The translations under genes were made by a program, and so were the position numbers. Shown piece after piece: positions 29,419 to 39,103 of a stretch of DNA of 42,770 nt; the first letter of the stretch is position 1; each line of letters starts with the position of its first letter. The notes below the pieces were generated by a model, which saw only the letters and a list, made by a program, of their open reading frames with translations, did no database searches and was not told where the DNA came from. The DNA comes from a virus. The stretch covers positions 1 through 42,770 of IMG/VR virus record IMGVR_UViG_3300048996_000026; one strand, written 5' to 3'.

Positions 29419-31397
29419 TGCCCATCGAAGTCGAGTTGCCTGATGGCAGCGTGGTCGAGTTCCCGGATGGCACCGACGGCACCACGATGGAGCGTGCGCT
29501 GGCACGGCACAGGTCCGGCGCTCCGACCAAGCCAGCAGCGCCGCCACAGCGCGACGGCGGCGAAATGTCGCTATCCGACTTGATCACGGGCCGGAAGCCG
29601 CAGCCATGGGACTACAACCCGACCGGCATCAAGGCCGCGGACGGCGTGACGCGCCAGGTTGGCGCGACTGCCGACGCCTTGCAGCACCGCCTCGTCGACC
29701 TTCCGCTCGGTATCGCGCAGCTAGTCGGTAATACGGTCAACTCCGGCATCCAGAAGGTCGCAGGCGACACGGAGTGGGCGCAGGGCGTCGACGCCCGCAA
29801 CACCGCGCAGAACGCGCAGGTTGCGCAGCGGGAGGCCGACTATCAGGAGCGCACCGGCACGACTGCGGGCTCGTACCTGGGCAGCGTCGTGGGGCAGGTG
29901 CTGCCGTGGATTACAGGCGTGGGCGCGCTGCGATCCGCGGGTGCGCTGCCGAAGCTCGATCGGCTGGGCGACGTTGCCGGCGTGGGGGCCAAGGCGCGGA
30001 ACATCGGTGCGAAGACGGGCCTGCTGGCGGCGGAAGGAGCGGCCAGTGGCGCCGCTCAGCCAGTGGGCGATGGCTCACCCTACTGGGAACAGAAGGGAAG
30101 CGATGTTGCCCTTGGTGGAGTAGCCGCGCCGCTCATGGTTGCAGGCGGCGCCGCGGCAACGAAGTCGCTTGGGGCTGTGGCGGATGGTGCGCGCCTGCTT
30201 ACTGCGTCCGGCCGCGATGCGCTCGCCGATAGGCGCCTTGCCGGCATGCTCGACTACGAACCCAACATTCTCAACACGCTGCGGAACGCTCCGCAGTACG
30301 TGGCCGGCGAGCAGCCGACGCTCGCGCAGGTGGTGGCAACCCCGAAGGCCGTGCAGGTCGAGCGCTCGCTGCGCAACAACCCCCAGGCCGGGCCGGCATT
30401 CGCTGAGCAGGACGCCTTGAACAATGCCGCGCGGGTGGAAGCTCTGCAGCGGATCGCTGGCGACGATGCCGCGATGGAGGCGGCGAAGGCGGCCCGGAGT
30501 GCCGGCGCGGCGAGCTTCCGCAGCGCGCACCTGCCGGACGAGGGCGGGGCGCTGGTGGACCACACGAGCATCGTGCCGCTGCTGACGCGCCTGACCGATG
30601 GGGCGGACCCTGCGGTATCGAAAGCCGCCCAGCGCACGTTGCGCTTGCTGAACAAGCACGCCAAGGCGAACGGCGGTAAAGTTCCGGCCACGGTCCTTGA
30701 CGACATCCAGCAGAATGTCGGCGAGACGCTGCGGCAGATGAGCGCCAACGGGCCGGTCACTCCCAAGCAGGTAGCGCGCTTTGGCCCGGTCAAGACCCAA
30801 ATTGTTGATGCGCTCGACGGAGCAGTACCGGGCTATCGCGATTATCTGGCCGCGTATGCACGTGATTCGGCGCCTATCAACGATATGGCAGCGGCACGGC
30901 GACTTATGGAAAACAGCGCTCTTGCTGGCCGCGACGGGAGCGGTGGTCAGGTACTTTCAATCCCTCAACTGAGGCAGACGCTCCGCCTCGACGACAAGGC
31001 CGACTTCCCGATGACGGACACGGCCCGGGGCGAGATCGAGAACATCCTGCAGAGCCTCCAGCGCCGCTCAATCTCCGACAACAAGGTGGCCGCCAGCGGG
31101 CCGGGAACGGCTGCGGAGGCGGGCGCGGCACTGCTGGATTCGCCCGTTGCACGAGTGCTGGGCGGCACCGGGGCCGGCATTCTCGGCACGACGTTCGGCG
31201 GTCCGCTTGCGGGTATCGCCGCTGCGCTCACCGCGGAGGGTGCAGGTGCGGCACGTCGCGACATCACCCGCCGGGTCGGCGAGAAGGCGGCTACGTCAAC
31301 AAAGGCCGCGGCCGCGCTTGAAGCGGGCCTGCGTGCCCGCCAGCGTGCGCTACAGGGCGGCGTGCCGAAGTACCTGCTTCCTTGGGATGGGCGCTAG
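29418..31397 (+). CDS. Large ejection/internal virion protein
   Basis: This encodes 659 residues from ATG at 29418, overlapping the preceding stop by one base (TAATG). It opens with MPIEVELPDGSVVEFPDGTD, a short N-terminal domain common to phage internal proteins. Two hydrophobic/glycine-rich stretches follow (GSYLGSVVGQVLPWITGVGALRSAG; VALGGVAAPLMVAGGAAATKSLGAVADGA), then long helices and a third Gly/Ala-rich stretch (AGILGTTFGGPLAGIAAALTAEGAGA). It is likely to enter the host membrane. Its TAG stop lies within a CTAG shared with the stop of the opposing lipoprotein gene. Confidence 0.7.
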   Translation: MPIEVELPDGSVVEFPDGTDGTTMERALARHRSGAPTKPAAPPQRDGGEMSLSDLITGRKPQPWDYNPTGIKAADGVTRQVGATADALQHRLVDLPLGIAQLVGNTVNSGIQKVAGDTEWAQGVDARNTAQNAQVAQREADYQERTGTTAGSYLGSVVGQVLPWITGVGALRSAGALPKLDRLGDVAGVGAKARNIGAKTGLLAAEGAASGAAQPVGDGSPYWEQKGSDVALGGVAAPLMVAGGAAATKSLGAVADGARLLTASGRDALADRRLAGMLDYEPNILNTLRNAPQYVAGEQPTLAQVVATPKAVQVERSLRNNPQAGPAFAEQDALNNAARVEALQRIAGDDAAMEAAKAARSAGAASFRSAHLPDEGGALVDHTSIVPLLTRLTDGADPAVSKAAQRTLRLLNKHAKANGGKVPATVLDDIQQNVGETLRQMSANGPVTPKQVARFGPVKTQIVDALDGAVPGYRDYLAAYARDSAPINDMAAARRLMENSALAGRDGSGGQVLSIPQLRQTLRLDDKADFPMTDTARGEIENILQSLQRRSISDNKVAASGPGTAAEAGAALLDSPVARVLGGTGAGILGTTFGGPLAGIAAALTAEGAGAARRDITRRVGEKAATSTKAAAALEAGLRARQRALQGGVPKYLLPWDGR

Positions 31398-31696
31398 CCG
31401 GGGCACGCATACGCGTTGCCAGATACGGACGTTGACCCGTAGGGCGTCGCGAACGGCCCCCAGACCACCGTGTTGGCGCCGAGCGCTGCGGCCTGTGCAA
31501 ACGCCTGCTGCCGGGCCTTCGCAAGCGCGGACTCCGCCATGACGCCGTAGAGGCTGGAAACCCCGTGCACATCGCCGAGGAAGCGACACTGGGTCACCAT
31601 ATCGGCGGTGGCTACACGCGTACCCGAAGGGATGTGTGCAGTCGAAGTCGTGGCGCACCCGGCAGCCAGGGCAACACCAACAATCAGGAATCGCAT
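31394..31696 (-). CDS. Small lipoprotein (DUF4156-like), moron
   Basis: This encodes 100 residues from ATG at 31696 with GGAG about 8 bases upstream. The signal MRFLIVGVALAAGC ends in a lipobox (LAAGC, Cys14), so it is probably an outer-membrane lipoprotein. The mature part (VATADMVTQCRFLGDVHGVSS..., KARQQAFAQAAALGANTVVWG) resembles DUF4156/RcsF-related lipoproteins. It is the only leftward gene in the late region and its stop overlaps that of the ejection gene. This is the pattern of a lysogenic-conversion gene, perhaps altering the host surface or excluding other phages. Confidence 0.75.
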   Translation of the reverse strand: MRFLIVGVALAAGCATTSTAHIPSGTRVATADMVTQCRFLGDVHGVSSLYGVMAESALAKARQQAFAQAAALGANTVVWGPFATPYGSTSVSGNAYACPG

Positions 31697-31773
31697 CACG
31701 GCTCCAGAGGCTCGACGGGGCATGGGGCGATGGTAGCGCAGGGGCAGGCGGGGAAGTGGGCCTGAACTTTTGC

Positions 31774-31802
31774 TTGACGGGCAGCCGTGAAACCCATAAA
31801 TT
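31774..31802 (+). promoter_or_regulatory. Toxin-antitoxin promoter
   Basis: TTGACG (31774-31779), 17-bp spacer, TAAATT (31797-31802). It is followed by the toxin ATG at 31833. The inverted repeat at 31786-31807 covers the -10, so the antitoxin can autoregulate. A-T content is locally higher than in neighbouring late genes. Confidence 0.65.
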
Positions 31803-31807
31803 TCACG
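31786..31807. promoter_or_regulatory. Operator palindrome over TA promoter
   Basis: CGTGAAA (31786-31792) and TTTCACG (31801-31807) are perfect inverted arms with an 8-bp centre. They overlap the promoter -10. Likely binding site for the HTH antitoxin encoded at 32223. Confidence 0.6.
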
Positions 31808-31812
31808 TGTCC

Positions 31813-31829
31813 CCCATAAGTGGTATGGG
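31813..31829. promoter_or_regulatory. Second inverted repeat before the toxin gene
   Basis: CCCATA (31813-31818) and TATGGG (31824-31829) flank a 5-bp centre, ending 3 bp before the toxin ATG. In RNA it could also hide the ribosome binding region. Half sites CCCATAA occur in both palindromes. Confidence 0.5.
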
Positions 31830-31832
31830 TAA

Positions 31833-32180
31833 ATGTCCTCCGTCATACAGCTCCACCCGGATCCCCCTCGATGTCGCTACGGATGGACGCGGCAGGAAGC
31901 CCAGCAGCATTTTGCTGACTTGGTCGTATCGGACGAGCGTATCCATGCCGTGCAGCACTGCTACCAGCGCATGGAAGAACGCGACATCAACTGGCGCCAG
32001 GTGTTGACGGTGCTGCGGCACGGTTCCTTAGTCCACGGGCCGGCGCTACATGACCTGATATGGCGGTCGAAGTTTCGAGGGCACGCCGCGGGGCAGGAGA
32101 TTTCTGTAGTTATCGACATCGAGAAGGATCAGATGGGGCATTTGATCGCGGTCATTACTGTGATTGACCACGACGTGTAA
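31833..32180 (+). CDS. DUF4258-type toxin
   Basis: This encodes 115 residues from ATG at 31833. The core HAVQHCYQRMEERDINWRQVLTVLRHGSLVHGPALHDLIWRSKFRGHAAGQEISVVIDIEKDQMGHLIAVITV matches DUF4258 proteins: 'H...RM..R.I....V..vL..G', a central beta strand region and a 'vvTV' final strand. This family has an MqsR/RelE-like small-RNase look and commonly pairs with an MqsA-type HTH antitoxin, as here. It would cleave mRNA if released. The pair stands alone with its own promoter and terminator inside the late region. Confidence 0.75.
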   Translation: MSSVIQLHPDPPRCRYGWTRQEAQQHFADLVVSDERIHAVQHCYQRMEERDINWRQVLTVLRHGSLVHGPALHDLIWRSKFRGHAAGQEISVVIDIEKDQMGHLIAVITVIDHDV

Positions 32181-32222
32181 CACCAGCAAGTGCAACACAA
32201 AATCCTGACAGGAGAGATTCAT

Positions 32223-32669
32223 ATGTACCGCTACCTTGGTTGCGGGCTGGACAATGTCTGGCTTCGTAATGGGTACGAGCTGAGCCGGACCGAATCCGGC
32301 AAAGAGATCGTTGTAATCAGCAACAAGGATGGCTTGCATAAGGCAATAGCGAAGGGGCTTTGCGATATTGCAAGGCCGCTATCGGGCAAGGAGTTCAAGT
32401 TCTTGCGCAAAGAGCTCGACATGTCCCAGCGGCAGGTTGCAGAGATGGTGGCCGTTGAGGAGCAGACGGTTTCGCTGTGGGAGCGAGACCAGCACGCGAT
32501 CAACAGAGCAGCGGAGCGCCTTCTGCGTACGCTGATGAAGGAAACCCTGAGCGGCAATGCGGAGGTCCGCGCATTGCTGGAGCGATTTGCAGAGATCGAC
32601 CGCGAAGCTCGCGAGGCTGAGCGAGATTTGCAGTTCGAAGCGATGCCGGATTGGCAGTTGGCTGCCTAA
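32223..32669 (+). CDS. MqsA-type HTH antitoxin
   Basis: This encodes 148 residues from ATG at 32223, with AGGAG about 8 bases upstream. The N-terminal domain (YRYLGCGLDNVWLRNGYELSRTESGKEIVVIS..GLHKAIAKGL) lacks the CxxC zinc pairs of E. coli MqsA. The C-terminal XRE helix-turn-helix (LSGKEFKFLRKELDMSQRQVAEMVAVEEQTVSLWERDQHAI) is strong. It would neutralise the upstream toxin and bind the two palindromes at 31786-31829. A 42 bp gap separates the two genes. The toxin-first order is the MqsRA/HigBA order. Confidence 0.82.
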   Translation: MYRYLGCGLDNVWLRNGYELSRTESGKEIVVISNKDGLHKAIAKGLCDIARPLSGKEFKFLRKELDMSQRQVAEMVAVEEQTVSLWERDQHAINRAAERLLRTLMKETLSGNAEVRALLERFAEIDREAREAERDLQFEAMPDWQLAA

Positions 32670-32690
32670 GCAAACCGGTCACGACCATTA

Positions 32691-32717
32691 AAGCCCCGCC
32701 AAGCGCGGGGCTTTTTC
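32691..32717 (+). terminator. Intrinsic terminator after the TA pair
   Basis: AAGCCCCGC (32691-32699), 5-base loop, GCGGGGCTT (32705-32713), then the T-run continues to 32716. A textbook rho-independent terminator. It closes the toxin-antitoxin unit and would also limit late read-through from the ejection genes, making a new start for the lysis cassette necessary. Confidence 0.9.
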
Positions 32718-32791: not shown

Positions 32792-32887
32792 ATGCAGACA
32801 CTATCCCTCCAGCAGCGCTTGAAAGACGCCGGGTTTGACCGGCGACGCGCGCTCCCGCCGAAGATGTCCGCGCGGGGCATGCGCTGA
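32792..32887 (+). CDS. Possible 31-residue leader peptide of the lysis cassette
   Basis: ATG at 32792 opens a 31-codon frame (MQTLSLQQRLKDAGFDRRR...) whose stop shares one base with the holin-position ATG (TGATG at 32885-32889). The tight coupling suggests a translated leader that controls access to the next start. No strong Shine-Dalgarno precedes it and no homologue is recognised, so it may be chance. Confidence 0.35.
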   Translation: MQTLSLQQRLKDAGFDRRRALPPKMSARGMR

Positions 32888-33462
32888 TGGACCCACAGAC
32901 GATTGTCGAAATCGCCGTGGGGGTGGCGACCTTTCTGACCTACGTCGTCGGTGCGATCGGCGCAGTCGCCGGAGCAATCGGCACGGTCTGGGTGTTCTTT
33001 CGCAAGCGCATCCGCAAATGGTGGGAGCCGTACCGGGCTGGCCTCCAAGGCGCGGCCGCGGTGCCCAGGCTGCAGGGTGCAATCGAGACCCTCGAGAAGG
33101 CCATGCACCTGATGACCATGCACATGCGGGCTCAGGGCGACACAGACATCGAGCGCGGCCAGTTCGAGACGGACGAAACAGGCGCGCTGACCTACGTCAA
33201 TCTGACCTATGCCCGGTGGCTGGGGGTCGGCAAGGCCGAGCTTCTTGGCTGGGGCTGGGTGAACTACATCCTTCCCGACGACCGCATCCGGGTCCGCGGC
33301 GAATGGGATGCCTGCCGGGCTGAGCATCGGGTCTTCAACATCCGGTTCCGGATGCTCGACTCGGGCGGTGACTCGATCCCGGTCGACGTACTGGCTACAC
33401 CAATTCCCGAGTCTCCGCCCGCGAAACGCTGGCTGGGCGTCATCCGGAGGGTGGTCGATTGA
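32887..33462 (+). CDS. Membrane-anchored PAS-domain protein in the holin position
   Basis: This encodes 191 residues from ATG at 32887. Residues ~5-38 are hydrophobic and glycine/alanine-rich (VEIAVGVATFLTYVVGAIGA...), enough for one long or two short membrane spans. A basic turn (RKRIRKWWEPYR) and a helical linker follow. Residues ~91-191 read as a PAS domain (GALTYVNLTYARWLGVGKAE..., WGWVNYILPDDR, FRMLDSGGDSIPVDVLATPI). The gene overlaps the endolysin start by 4 bp, the place of a holin. A holin whose cytoplasmic PAS domain senses a signal is possible; it could instead be a separate sensor. Confidence 0.7.
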   Translation: MDPQTIVEIAVGVATFLTYVVGAIGAVAGAIGTVWVFFRKRIRKWWEPYRAGLQGAAAVPRLQGAIETLEKAMHLMTMHMRAQGDTDIERGQFETDETGALTYVNLTYARWLGVGKAELLGWGWVNYILPDDRIRVRGEWDACRAEHRVFNIRFRMLDSGGDSIPVDVLATPIPESPPAKRWLGVIRRVVD

Positions 33463-34016
33463 ACGCGCAGACCAAAACAAAGAAGGCTCCGGTCGCCGGA
33501 CTGGCGGCGGGCTTGGGCGCGCTCGTGCTCGCCTCGGTTGGCCTGATGGAGTTCGTGGAGAAGTGGGAATCCAGCGGTAAGCGTGTGCTGACGGCCTACG
33601 CCGACAAGCTGGCCGGCGGGATCCCCACCGTGTGCAACGGGCTCACGCGCCACGTGACCTCGACGCCGATCATCGTGGGCCAGCGCTGGACAACGGAGAA
33701 GTGCGTGGCCGAGGAACGCGCCGCGATGATCCACAAGGTTCAGGTGCCGCTGCTGCGGTGCTTCAACCACATCCCCCCGCAGGGCGTGTTCGACACGGCA
33801 AGCGAACACGGATGGAACTTCGGGGTCGGCAAGACATGCGGCAGCGTCGCGATGCAGCACTGGAACCGGCGTGACTACGTGGCCGGATGCAAGCGCGTTG
33901 CGCACGACTACGCCGGGAGACCGGTCTGGGCGTACTCGGACGGAAAGTTCTACAGCGGCCTGCACAACCGCCGGCTCGACTCGATCACATCGCTCTGCAT
34001 GAAGGGCCTCCAATGA
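33459..34016 (+). CDS. SAR endolysin, GH24 lysozyme
   Basis: This encodes 185 residues starting at TTG 33459 (TTGA overlap), supported by GGAGG upstream within the preceding gene. Residues ~11-33 form a Gly/Ala-rich weakly hydrophobic segment typical of a signal-arrest-release anchor. The GH24 triad is Glu37 (KWESSG), Asp49 (AYADKLAGG) and Thr57 (IPTVCNG), with a Glu-Asp spacing three residues longer than in T4 lysozyme. Six cysteines (59, 82, 101, 127, 144, 180) may control activity by disulfide exchange after release. It cleaves peptidoglycan glycan strands. Confidence 0.88.
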   Translation: MNAQTKTKKAPVAGLAAGLGALVLASVGLMEFVEKWESSGKRVLTAYADKLAGGIPTVCNGLTRHVTSTPIIVGQRWTTEKCVAEERAAMIHKVQVPLLRCFNHIPPQGVFDTASEHGWNFGVGKTCGSVAMQHWNRRDYVAGCKRVAHDYAGRPVWAYSDGKFYSGLHNRRLDSITSLCMKGLQ

Positions 34017-34438
34017 TCCGCGAGCGCATCGTCCAGGCGATTGACCCGTTCCGGTCCTACGCCGAGCTCGCCAAGTGGCTGGGCATCCTCATCATTGCGG
34101 CCGCTCTGGTCGTGGGCGGATGCCGCCACGGCGAGAAGGAGCAGGCGCAGGACGACGCCGAGACCATCCGGAAGGCACAGGACGAAGCCGCGGGCCACAA
34201 GGCGCAGGTCGCGATCCTCGCGCAGCGCCTGGCCGAGATCGACAGCGAGACGGCCGAGGCTGCCCGACTGGCAGAGGAGCGCAAGCGGGAGGCCGACGAG
34301 GCTGCCAAGCGTGCGGTGCTGCAGGCGCAGGCGCTCAAGAAGGAGCTGGCCGAGATCGACGCGGACATCGCGAAGGCCAAGCGCGACCCGGACTGCCGGC
34401 GAATGATGGAGGCCCGCTCATGCGCGCTGCTCAAGTAG
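34013..34438 (+). CDS. Rz: Rz-like inner-membrane spanin
   Basis: This encodes 141 residues from ATG at 34013, overlapping the endolysin stop by 4 bp. A membrane segment (WLGILIIAAALVVGG, ~20-36) is followed by a long charged coiled coil (ETIRKAQDEAAGHKAQVAILAQRLAEID... to EIDADIAKAKRDPDCRRMM). This is the layout of an i-spanin, which spans the periplasm and fuses inner and outer membranes with its lipoprotein partner encoded directly downstream. Confidence 0.82.
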   Translation: MIRERIVQAIDPFRSYAELAKWLGILIIAAALVVGGCRHGEKEQAQDDAETIRKAQDEAAGHKAQVAILAQRLAEIDSETAEAARLAEERKREADEAAKRAVLQAQALKKELAEIDADIAKAKRDPDCRRMMEARSCALLK

Positions 34439-34683
34439 TCCGCGCCCTCGTCATCTGCGGCCTGCTGGCCGGCTGCCAGACCCGCGGCCCCGTGGTGCCC
34501 AAGATCGTGCGCGTCACGGTCGAGAAGATCGTCCCGGTCCCCGAGGCCCTGACGGAGCCGTGCGACGAGGTGCCGACACGCGAGCAGACCCTCGGCGAGG
34601 CGGTGCGGGTGGCGAATGCCCGGCTGGCGAGCCTGAAGGCGTGCAACGGGAAGCTGGCCGAGATTCGGGGGCTGGGGAAGTGA
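34420..34683 (+). CDS. Rz1: Rz1-like outer-membrane spanin lipoprotein
   Basis: This encodes 87 residues from ATG at 34420, overlapping the Rz 3' end by 19 bp in another frame. The signal (VVRALVICGLLAGC) ends in a lipobox with Cys19. The mature chain is proline-containing (RGPVVPKIVRV, VPVPEALTEPCDEVPT) as in o-spanins, then helical. Partly overlapping Rz/Rz1 gene pairs are common. Confidence 0.8.
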   Translation: MRAAQVVRALVICGLLAGCQTRGPVVPKIVRVTVEKIVPVPEALTEPCDEVPTREQTLGEAVRVANARLASLKACNGKLAEIRGLGK

Positions 34684-37926: not shown

Positions 37927-38883
37927 CTAGAGGCGGTCGGCGAGGTCGTCGGCGCTGGTCTCGTAGTAGATCATCAGCGAGCGCGGGTCGCGGTGGCCGA
38001 TGACGCGCGCCAGCTCCAGCACGTCGAACTTCTTGGACAGCCGCCACACCGCTTCGGCCCGGCTGTCGTGGAAGTGCAGGTTCGGGATCTTCGCGGTGTC
38101 GCGCATTCGGCGGAACATCACGTCGCGGGTGCCCGGCTCCAGATCGAACACCTGCCGCTCGCGAGGCAAGGCGGCCAGTATCTCGCGGGCGCGTGGTGAC
38201 AGCGGCACCTCGCGGGCGTCTCCGTTCTTCGTGATGGGCAGGCGCACGAACTTCGCCTCCACGTCCTGCCAGCGCAGGCCGACGATTTCCCCCGCCCGCA
38301 TTGCCGTCTCCAGCGCGAACAGGAAGGCGAGGCACGTCCGCTGCATGGCGGTTTCGTGTTCGGTGTCAGTCACGCCAGCGGCGATCATCAGCCGGTCGAT
38401 TTCGTCCTGAGTGACCCGGCGCTTCCGGCTGGTGGGCGAGCGCGGCGGCTTCACGTCCTCCAGCGGGTTCGCGCGGAGCCAGTGCCACTCCTTCCACGCC
38501 AGCCGCAGGACGGAGCGCAGCAGGTTCATTTCCCGCGCCACGGTGGACGGGGCGACCTCTGCCAGCCGTCTATCCCGCCAGCTTGCAAGGTCCGGTGTCC
38601 GCAGGTCCGCCAGACGCTTGCCGGCGACCGCATCGCGGCCCATCGCATCGAGCCGCAGCGTTTCCCACCTCGCACCGCGCTTGGACGGACTCACGTCGCG
38701 CGCGTAGCGGCGCAGGGCGTCGCCGAGGGTATGATCGGCCAGTCGCGTACCGGTCAGTTCGGCCTCGCGCTGGAGCGCCCATGCGGAGGCTTCCTGCTTG
38801 GTGCGGAACGTTTCGGAGTCGCGTTCAGTCCCGCGCCGGACTTGGGCACGCCAGCCCTTGCCGTGCCGATAGATGCTCGCCAT
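37927..38883 (-). CDS. int: Tyrosine integrase
   Basis: This encodes 318 residues. ATG at 38883 (MASIYRHGKGWRAQVRRG) is chosen because it begins the typical N-terminal arm-binding fold; the open frame extends further. The catalytic domain shows AMRAGEIVGLRW (first Arg), LPITKNGDAREVPL (Lys), LHFHDSRAEAVWRLS (an 'H-x-x-R' variant reading HDSR), VIGHRDPRSLMIYYE (GH and the Tyr nucleophile). It carries out site-specific integration and, with the excisionase, excision. It lies last in the leftward operon, facing the late operon. Confidence 0.92.
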   Translation of the reverse strand: MASIYRHGKGWRAQVRRGTERDSETFRTKQEASAWALQREAELTGTRLADHTLGDALRRYARDVSPSKRGARWETLRLDAMGRDAVAGKRLADLRTPDLASWRDRRLAEVAPSTVAREMNLLRSVLRLAWKEWHWLRANPLEDVKPPRSPTSRKRRVTQDEIDRLMIAAGVTDTEHETAMQRTCLAFLFALETAMRAGEIVGLRWQDVEAKFVRLPITKNGDAREVPLSPRAREILAALPRERQVFDLEPGTRDVMFRRMRDTAKIPNLHFHDSRAEAVWRLSKKFDVLELARVIGHRDPRSLMIYYETSADDLADRL

Positions 38884-39103
38884 GTGCAATCCGTGGGGCG
38901 CACGGACTCGGCACCCGATAATTGCTGGCACTATCCGGCAATGAAGCACCTCACGCAACCCGTTGATCGGGCGGGGTTTTCAGGTTATCCGTGCCCTGCC
39001 GTGAGCTACCGGCAATGGCCCCGCAGGGCCTATTTCCGGCACCAAACCCTCGCGCCCCGCTTAGCTTTCCACGTATCGTGGGGCGCTGGCGGGGCGCGGT
39101 CTT
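38884..39103. other. Int-xis intergenic region with inverted repeats
   Basis: About 220 bp contain no gene. GCGCCCCGC and GCGGGGCGC form 9-bp inverted arms around 39052-39098, and GGCCC-CGCA-GGGCC forms a short hairpin near 39017-39030. CCGGCAATG occurs twice, near 38934 and 39009. The gap interrupts an otherwise overlapping operon, so it may hold a separate integrase promoter or excisionase sites. I cannot identify clear -35/-10 boxes. Confidence 0.4.

Follow-up and report, generated by a model that had tools for sequence, protein, structure and literature searches.

The window, by which we mean the whole 42,770-nt stretch of viral DNA that was analysed, carries a plus-strand lysis cassette in which a gene for a predicted membrane-anchored protein with a PAS domain (TM-PAS) directly precedes an endolysin gene and genes for two spanin-like proteins. 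The features of the locus are as follows.

32690..32714, plus strand: terminator-like hairpin (-18.4 kcal/mol, z -3.9; the consensus scan did not flag it)
32887..33462, plus strand: TM-PAS gene, ATG start, 191 aa; a single N-terminal anchor and a predicted cytoplasmic C-terminal PAS domain
32902..33000, plus strand: hydrophobic anchor by hydropathy, residues ~6-38 (33 residues)
33001..33033, plus strand: basic juxtamembrane stretch RKRIRKWWEPY, which predicts N-out/C-in by the positive-inside rule
33034..33150, plus strand: helical linker, 26 residues shorter than in the homologues
33163..33450, plus strand: PAS domain, residues 93-188, with 54-62% identity to the three homologues
33446..33450, plus strand: endolysin Shine-Dalgarno sequence GGAGG, within the last PAS codons and conserved in 4/4 cassettes
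33459..34016, plus strand: GH24 SAR endolysin, TTG start (PF00959, phrog_7)
34013..34438, plus strand: Rz-like inner-membrane spanin subunit (phrog_35104, 1.8e-11; phrog_214 Rz-like, 0.042; hydropathy)
34420..34683, plus strand: Rz1-like outer-membrane spanin lipoprotein (LysC; PF23793)

The ORF at 32887-33462 scores as coding and shows coding-like codon use in the coding-potential scan. The initial annotation had described its product as a membrane segment followed by a basic turn, a linker and a C-terminal PAS domain, and each element was recovered: hydropathy places the anchor within the first ~38 residues (MDPQTIVEIAVGVATFLTYVVGAIGAVAGAIGTVWVFF), the basic stop RKRIRK follows it directly, and residues 102-186 match Pfam PAS_3 (E 8e-10, 39.3 bits vs a curated cut-off of 25.6). 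The anchor is long, rich in Gly/Ala and contains a GxxxG motif (GAVAG). Taken together, hydropathy and the positive-inside rule predict a single N-terminal TM segment in the N-out/C-in orientation. Nothing follows the last PAS strand, so the protein has no output domain except its own anchor. Its position just before a SAR endolysin gene, also claimed at the outset, holds as well: the endolysin starts with the tail MNAQTKTKK (three Lys) and continues with a weakly hydrophobic, Gly/Ala-rich segment, and this combination on a GH24 lysozyme indicates the SAR type. The endolysin TTG start sits inside the TM-PAS stop, with a 4-nt overlap.

Upstream of the cassette, between it and a virion-type gene, lies a toxin-antitoxin-like pair in which a DUF4258 protein is followed by an HTH_3 protein (31833-32669, plus strand); the hairpin at 32690-32714 stands between this pair and the lysis genes. 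A small lipoprotein-like gene on the minus strand (31394-31846) has a sub-threshold DUF4156 match (26.5 vs 28.9 bits) and is a possible moron. A tyrosine integrase encoded on the minus strand of the window (37927-38958; PF00589, 65 bits) makes it probable that the phage is temperate.

The PAS assignment does not depend on one profile. NCBIfam sensory_box TIGR00229 scores 33.9 vs a cut-off of 22.9, and the homologues score 41-53 bits against the PAS profile. Structure prediction had been proposed as a check for the PAS fold, and it agrees: from 15 sequences, AlphaFold2 modelled residues 82-191 with a mean pLDDT of 89.7 and the canonical PAS order of strands and helices; a model of the full-length protein is poor (pLDDT 55). 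In a Foldseek comparison with the PDB, 601 matches were obtained at E<=1e-3, and the top ones listed are PAS, LOV or PAS-B structures with a TM-score of ~0.8. Escherichia coli Aer ranks first (9e-8), with a slight margin over many other PAS domains. Two profile libraries, the structure model and three homologues rule out a chance or false PAS call.

The homologues were reached through the endolysin. We collected 80 IMG/VR loci with endolysin homologues and screened them for a PAS domain, which was present in a single record (L133), directly upstream of the endolysin gene; this ruled out that PAS domains are common in related SAR-endolysin cassettes. Two more members (L198 and L200) were recovered using an alignment of the window and L133 PAS parts. 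The four proteins share the same layout of anchor, basic stop, linker and PAS domain, and in 4/4 cases the very next gene, which the TM-PAS gene overlaps, encodes a GH24 SAR endolysin and is followed by an Rz-like gene. Finding these three relatives rules out an orphan or a sequencing oddity. All members come from metagenome or viral-contig records. The capsid proteins differ, with phrog_9953 in the window vs phrog_334 in L198 and a closely similar 370-aa protein in L133 and L200; L133, L198 and L200 share the same head genes and form one lineage, which with the window makes two independent lineages. Although the L198 endolysin shares only ~33-34% identity with its counterparts in the window and L200, the L198 PAS part retains 62-74% identity to the other three; the TM-PAS gene is thus kept at its site even as the endolysin beside it diverges or is exchanged. 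Endolysin identity for L133 is 50%.

Other searches returned little. The phages closest by capsid were ruled out as carriers, with a PAS domain in 0/52 records. INPHARED holds no relative of the window protein or of the L200 protein, even at E 10, and direct searches of phages, viral contigs and genomes gave no protein with the TM-PAS architecture. Matches in plasmids were generic PAS domains only, a genome scan with exact 8-residue patterns, which is insensitive, yielded only cyanobacterial multi-PAS proteins, and a scan with alignment A7 recovered L133 only.

The gene could instead be a moron, a shortened host sensor that merely sits in the lysis operon and acts on host signalling or superinfection. 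The PAS part does resemble bacterial PAS domains (25-29% identity to cyanobacterial sensor proteins), and mobile-looking gene pairs lie just upstream. We nevertheless regard such a cargo gene as very improbable: the position, the overlap with the endolysin start and the embedded Shine-Dalgarno sequence are the same in four phages of two lineages, the protein has no output domain, and no host homologue of the same architecture was found in the insensitive genome scan.

Among the four copies, identity is 54-74% in the PAS part vs 20-59% in the rest of the protein, and the pairwise dN/dS of the PAS part (~0.1-0.3, with synonymous sites near saturation) is below that of the rest. The PAS part is under purifying selection, and the higher identity and low dN/dS show that no other part of the protein is as constrained; for the conserved C-terminal IRR motif there is a second cause, since it also overlaps the endolysin ribosome-binding site. 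The anchor and linker vary. The anchor is 33 residues long in the window copy vs ~21 in the three homologues, in which GxxxG is not conserved, and the 26 extra linker residues of the homologues, the LKADVKGIRYYVxPNGGGSLMDSVK region, are absent from the window copy. The cytoplasmic part is slightly acidic throughout the family (net -2 to -5).

The residues of the PAS domain suggest no particular ligand. The LOV motif NCRFLQ is absent, the candidate His residues are not common to all four copies, and no cofactor-binding signature is conserved across the four. Assignment as a heme or flavin photoreceptor domain was therefore dropped, the required residues not being conserved, and for lack of such a signature sensing of oxygen, redox or light is a guess. 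All four copies have a Cys at the end of helix F, as do the closest cyanobacterial relatives. The domain might time lysis through a ligand, impose a concentration threshold by homodimerising, or make contact with the tail of the endolysin.

Next, we considered how the endolysin might be released. The initial annotation had noted no other obvious holin in the cassette. A crude scan of coding potential and hydropathy likewise gave no other convincing holin-like ORF in the 42.8-kb window, a record that is possibly incomplete, and a scan of the same kind gave no candidate near the lysis genes of the 63.8-kb record G132. The only other credible small membrane protein noticed in G132, the product of a 98-aa ORF (L206:1439-1735, plus strand), has at least two hydrophobic segments; its gene is on the opposite strand from the lysis cassette and well away from it. 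In the sister phages that are closest by capsid (MCP 55-57% identical), the cassettes (L096, L098, L099) encode an endolysin with no obvious SAR segment, a 1-TM coiled protein (phrog_33341), a 2-TM holin-like protein, Rz and Rz1. The L098 endolysin is a GH108 family enzyme and that of L096 has no Pfam match; the 2-TM holin-like protein is DUF7940/phrog_1356 and is absent from the window. A SAR endolysin together with TM-PAS, and no 2-TM holin, fits a protein that would only need to free or activate the SAR endolysin.

A precedent for such a protein is the Mu releasin gp25, a 99-aa, single-TM, N-out/C-in protein in a phage that lyses its host without a holin; the dependence of the Mu endolysin on gp25 is conferred by Lys6 and Lys7 of its short cytoplasmic tail (PMC9239132). 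TM-PAS is similar in having a single N-terminal TM segment, a predicted N-out/C-in topology and a cytoplasmic C-terminal domain, and its surroundings are similar in the SAR endolysin with a basic N-terminal tail, the spanins and the lack of a detected holin. We compared endolysin tails. The four PAS-linked endolysins have 3, 4, 4 and 4 Lys/Arg, whereas 68/78 of the homologues with no PAS partner have <=2 (mode 2); tails with >2 thus occur in 4/4 vs 10/78 (p ~6e-4 if independent, which the four members are not fully). Start codons for these counts were chosen by script, and one outlier clearly has a wrong start. SAR endolysins of holin-encoding phages can also carry 2 to 3 basic tail residues (PMC9239132), so the tail alone is no proof.

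From these data we propose that TM-PAS may be a lysis-cassette protein with a single N-out/C-in anchor, acting in the manner of Mu releasin, with a cytoplasmic PAS domain that controls timing; we judge this reading about as probable as all of its alternatives together. The SAR endolysin would sit in the inner membrane, held there by its basic N-terminal tail, until TM-PAS promotes its escape to the periplasm, where it would fold and cut peptidoglycan, after which Rz and Rz1 would breach the outer membrane. The time of release would be set by the PAS domain, which might dimerise or bind a host-cell ligand. With a single predicted N-out/C-in anchor and a directly linked SAR endolysin whose N-terminal tail is strongly basic, TM-PAS resembles Mu releasin at least as closely as it does a holin. 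The differences are also plain. TM-PAS has no sequence similarity to releasin (DUF2730 gave no Pfam match at E<=1, and the N-terminal part had none at E<=5), Mu gene 25 lies downstream of its endolysin gene while the TM-PAS gene lies upstream, and gp25 lacks a PAS domain and has a tail that is anionic, where TM-PAS has a PAS domain in an only slightly acidic cytoplasmic part. Against the proposal it also counts that three of the four members belong to a single lineage and that all of the evidence is drawn from sequence.

The main rival is a pinholin with a PAS tail, whose anchor oligomerises into small holes so that depolarisation frees the SAR endolysin, the PAS domain setting the oligomerisation threshold or sensing the state of the cell. 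Like the pinholins of the S21 type and N4 gp63 (PMC12642591), TM-PAS is encoded upstream of a SAR endolysin, and in most of the 80 related SAR-endolysin cassettes its position is taken by a short holin-like ORF with 1-2 TM segments. The long, Gly/Ala-rich window anchor with its GxxxG motif and the lack of another holin candidate in the window or near the G132 lysis genes point the same way. But GxxxG is not kept in the homologues, the ~150-aa cytoplasmic domain sets the protein apart from known pinholins, those of SAR-endolysin cassettes being short and having no comparable folded cytoplasmic domain or family match to TM-PAS, and no holin family in Pfam, PHROGs or NCBIfam matches the protein. 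We consider a pinholin possible but rather unlikely. The initial reading of a PAS-linked holin stands in part: the PAS domain, the anchor, the SAR endolysin and the absence of another holin candidate hold up, and the same layout recurs in further phages; the holin function and any sensing by the PAS domain are putative.

One further link concerns the linker. In L133, L198 and L200 it carries a PNGGGSLMDSVKRTE-type motif, which is absent from the window copy, and a similar motif (HPNAGGSLRDAVNRIE) is found in a TM protein of Thermobifida phage P1312, the product of gene 040 (L212:3704-4147), which matches phrog_9869 (4e-24) and phrog_15431 'holin' (1e-10). A profile comparison of the TM-PAS family with this protein aligned 33 columns at 79% probability. 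Like the TM-PAS homologues, the P1312 protein has a TM segment, an aromatic segment and a PNxGGSL-D-V-R-E linker motif, and its gene lies directly upstream of an endolysin gene with a 4-nt overlap; unlike them, it has no PAS domain and is paired with an amidase. The resemblance of the homologues' linker to phrog_9869 and, via gene 040, to phrog_15431 counts in favor of a pinholin. This weak link leaves room for a pinholin, or for the addition of a PAS domain to a membrane module of general use in lysis cassettes. The annotation of gene 040 as 'sensory protein kinase CreC' is probably wrong, since its product has the look of a TM protein whose linker contains PNAGGS.

TM-PAS could instead be an antiholin-like or lysis-inhibition protein that restrains the SAR endolysin until its PAS domain detects some change in the host. 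Regulation is the usual role of PAS domains, and the single-TM, N-out/C-in protein LysF1b and other membrane regulators in lysis cassettes alter lysis timing (PMC13056207, PMC12642591). LysF1b, characterised in the F1 mycobacteriophages Girr and NormanBulbieJr, shares with TM-PAS a single N-terminal TM segment in the N-out/C-in orientation, basic residues after it and a place in the lysis cassette; it differs in its highly charged helical tail, the lack of a PAS domain, a non-SAR partner endolysin and a mycobacterial host (PMC13056207). By sequence, TM-PAS belongs to neither the releasin nor the LysF1b family. A purely restraining role seems improbable to us, for TM-PAS would then have no other membrane protein beside it than the SAR endolysin and the spanins, and with no other holin found, release would be left to spontaneous escape.

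If TM-PAS acts as releasin does, it would add a sensory domain, hitherto unreported in that place, to the known kind of single-TM lysis-control protein, and it hints at holin-independent, releasin-type control of SAR endolysins outside Mu-like phages by an unrelated protein. In the open-access literature we found no report that pairs a holin with a PAS fold, or a PAS domain with an endolysin and spanins; broader searches gave incidental mentions only. A host-cell signal may, on this model, help to decide the time of burst. More specifically, TM-PAS might be a post-translational lysis switch in which the PAS domain reads a host metabolite, redox or energy state and gates SAR endolysin release via its own anchor, a proposal that we put forward tentatively and think somewhat more doubtful than sound. 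If it is true, cell physiology would directly set the lysis time. It has long been asked how phages adjust lysis time to the state of the host. The inputs known to act on lysis timing are membrane potential, through holins and SAR endolysins, and superinfection, through T4 T/RI; a sensory domain in a membrane protein of the lysis cassette would be a direct cytoplasmic input.

Two known systems come close in one respect each. VqmA of vibriophage VP882 senses via a PAS domain. It is a quorum-sensing receptor that starts the lytic program through transcription (PMC8284805). TM-PAS likewise pairs a phage PAS-type domain with lysis, but VqmA is a transcription factor and TM-PAS a membrane protein of the lysis cassette. 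The T4 holin T is N-in/C-out with an extracytoplasmic domain, and T/RI respond to superinfection (PMC8385771, PMC9671378); there, as proposed for TM-PAS, the action of a lysis protein is set by a signal, although T/RI have no PAS domain.

Finally, three PAS proteins of uncultured Caudovirales in BFVD (A0A6J5QVN9, A0A6J5NY05 and A0A6J5KZZ3) are of similar size (169-205 aa) and could be further members of the family.
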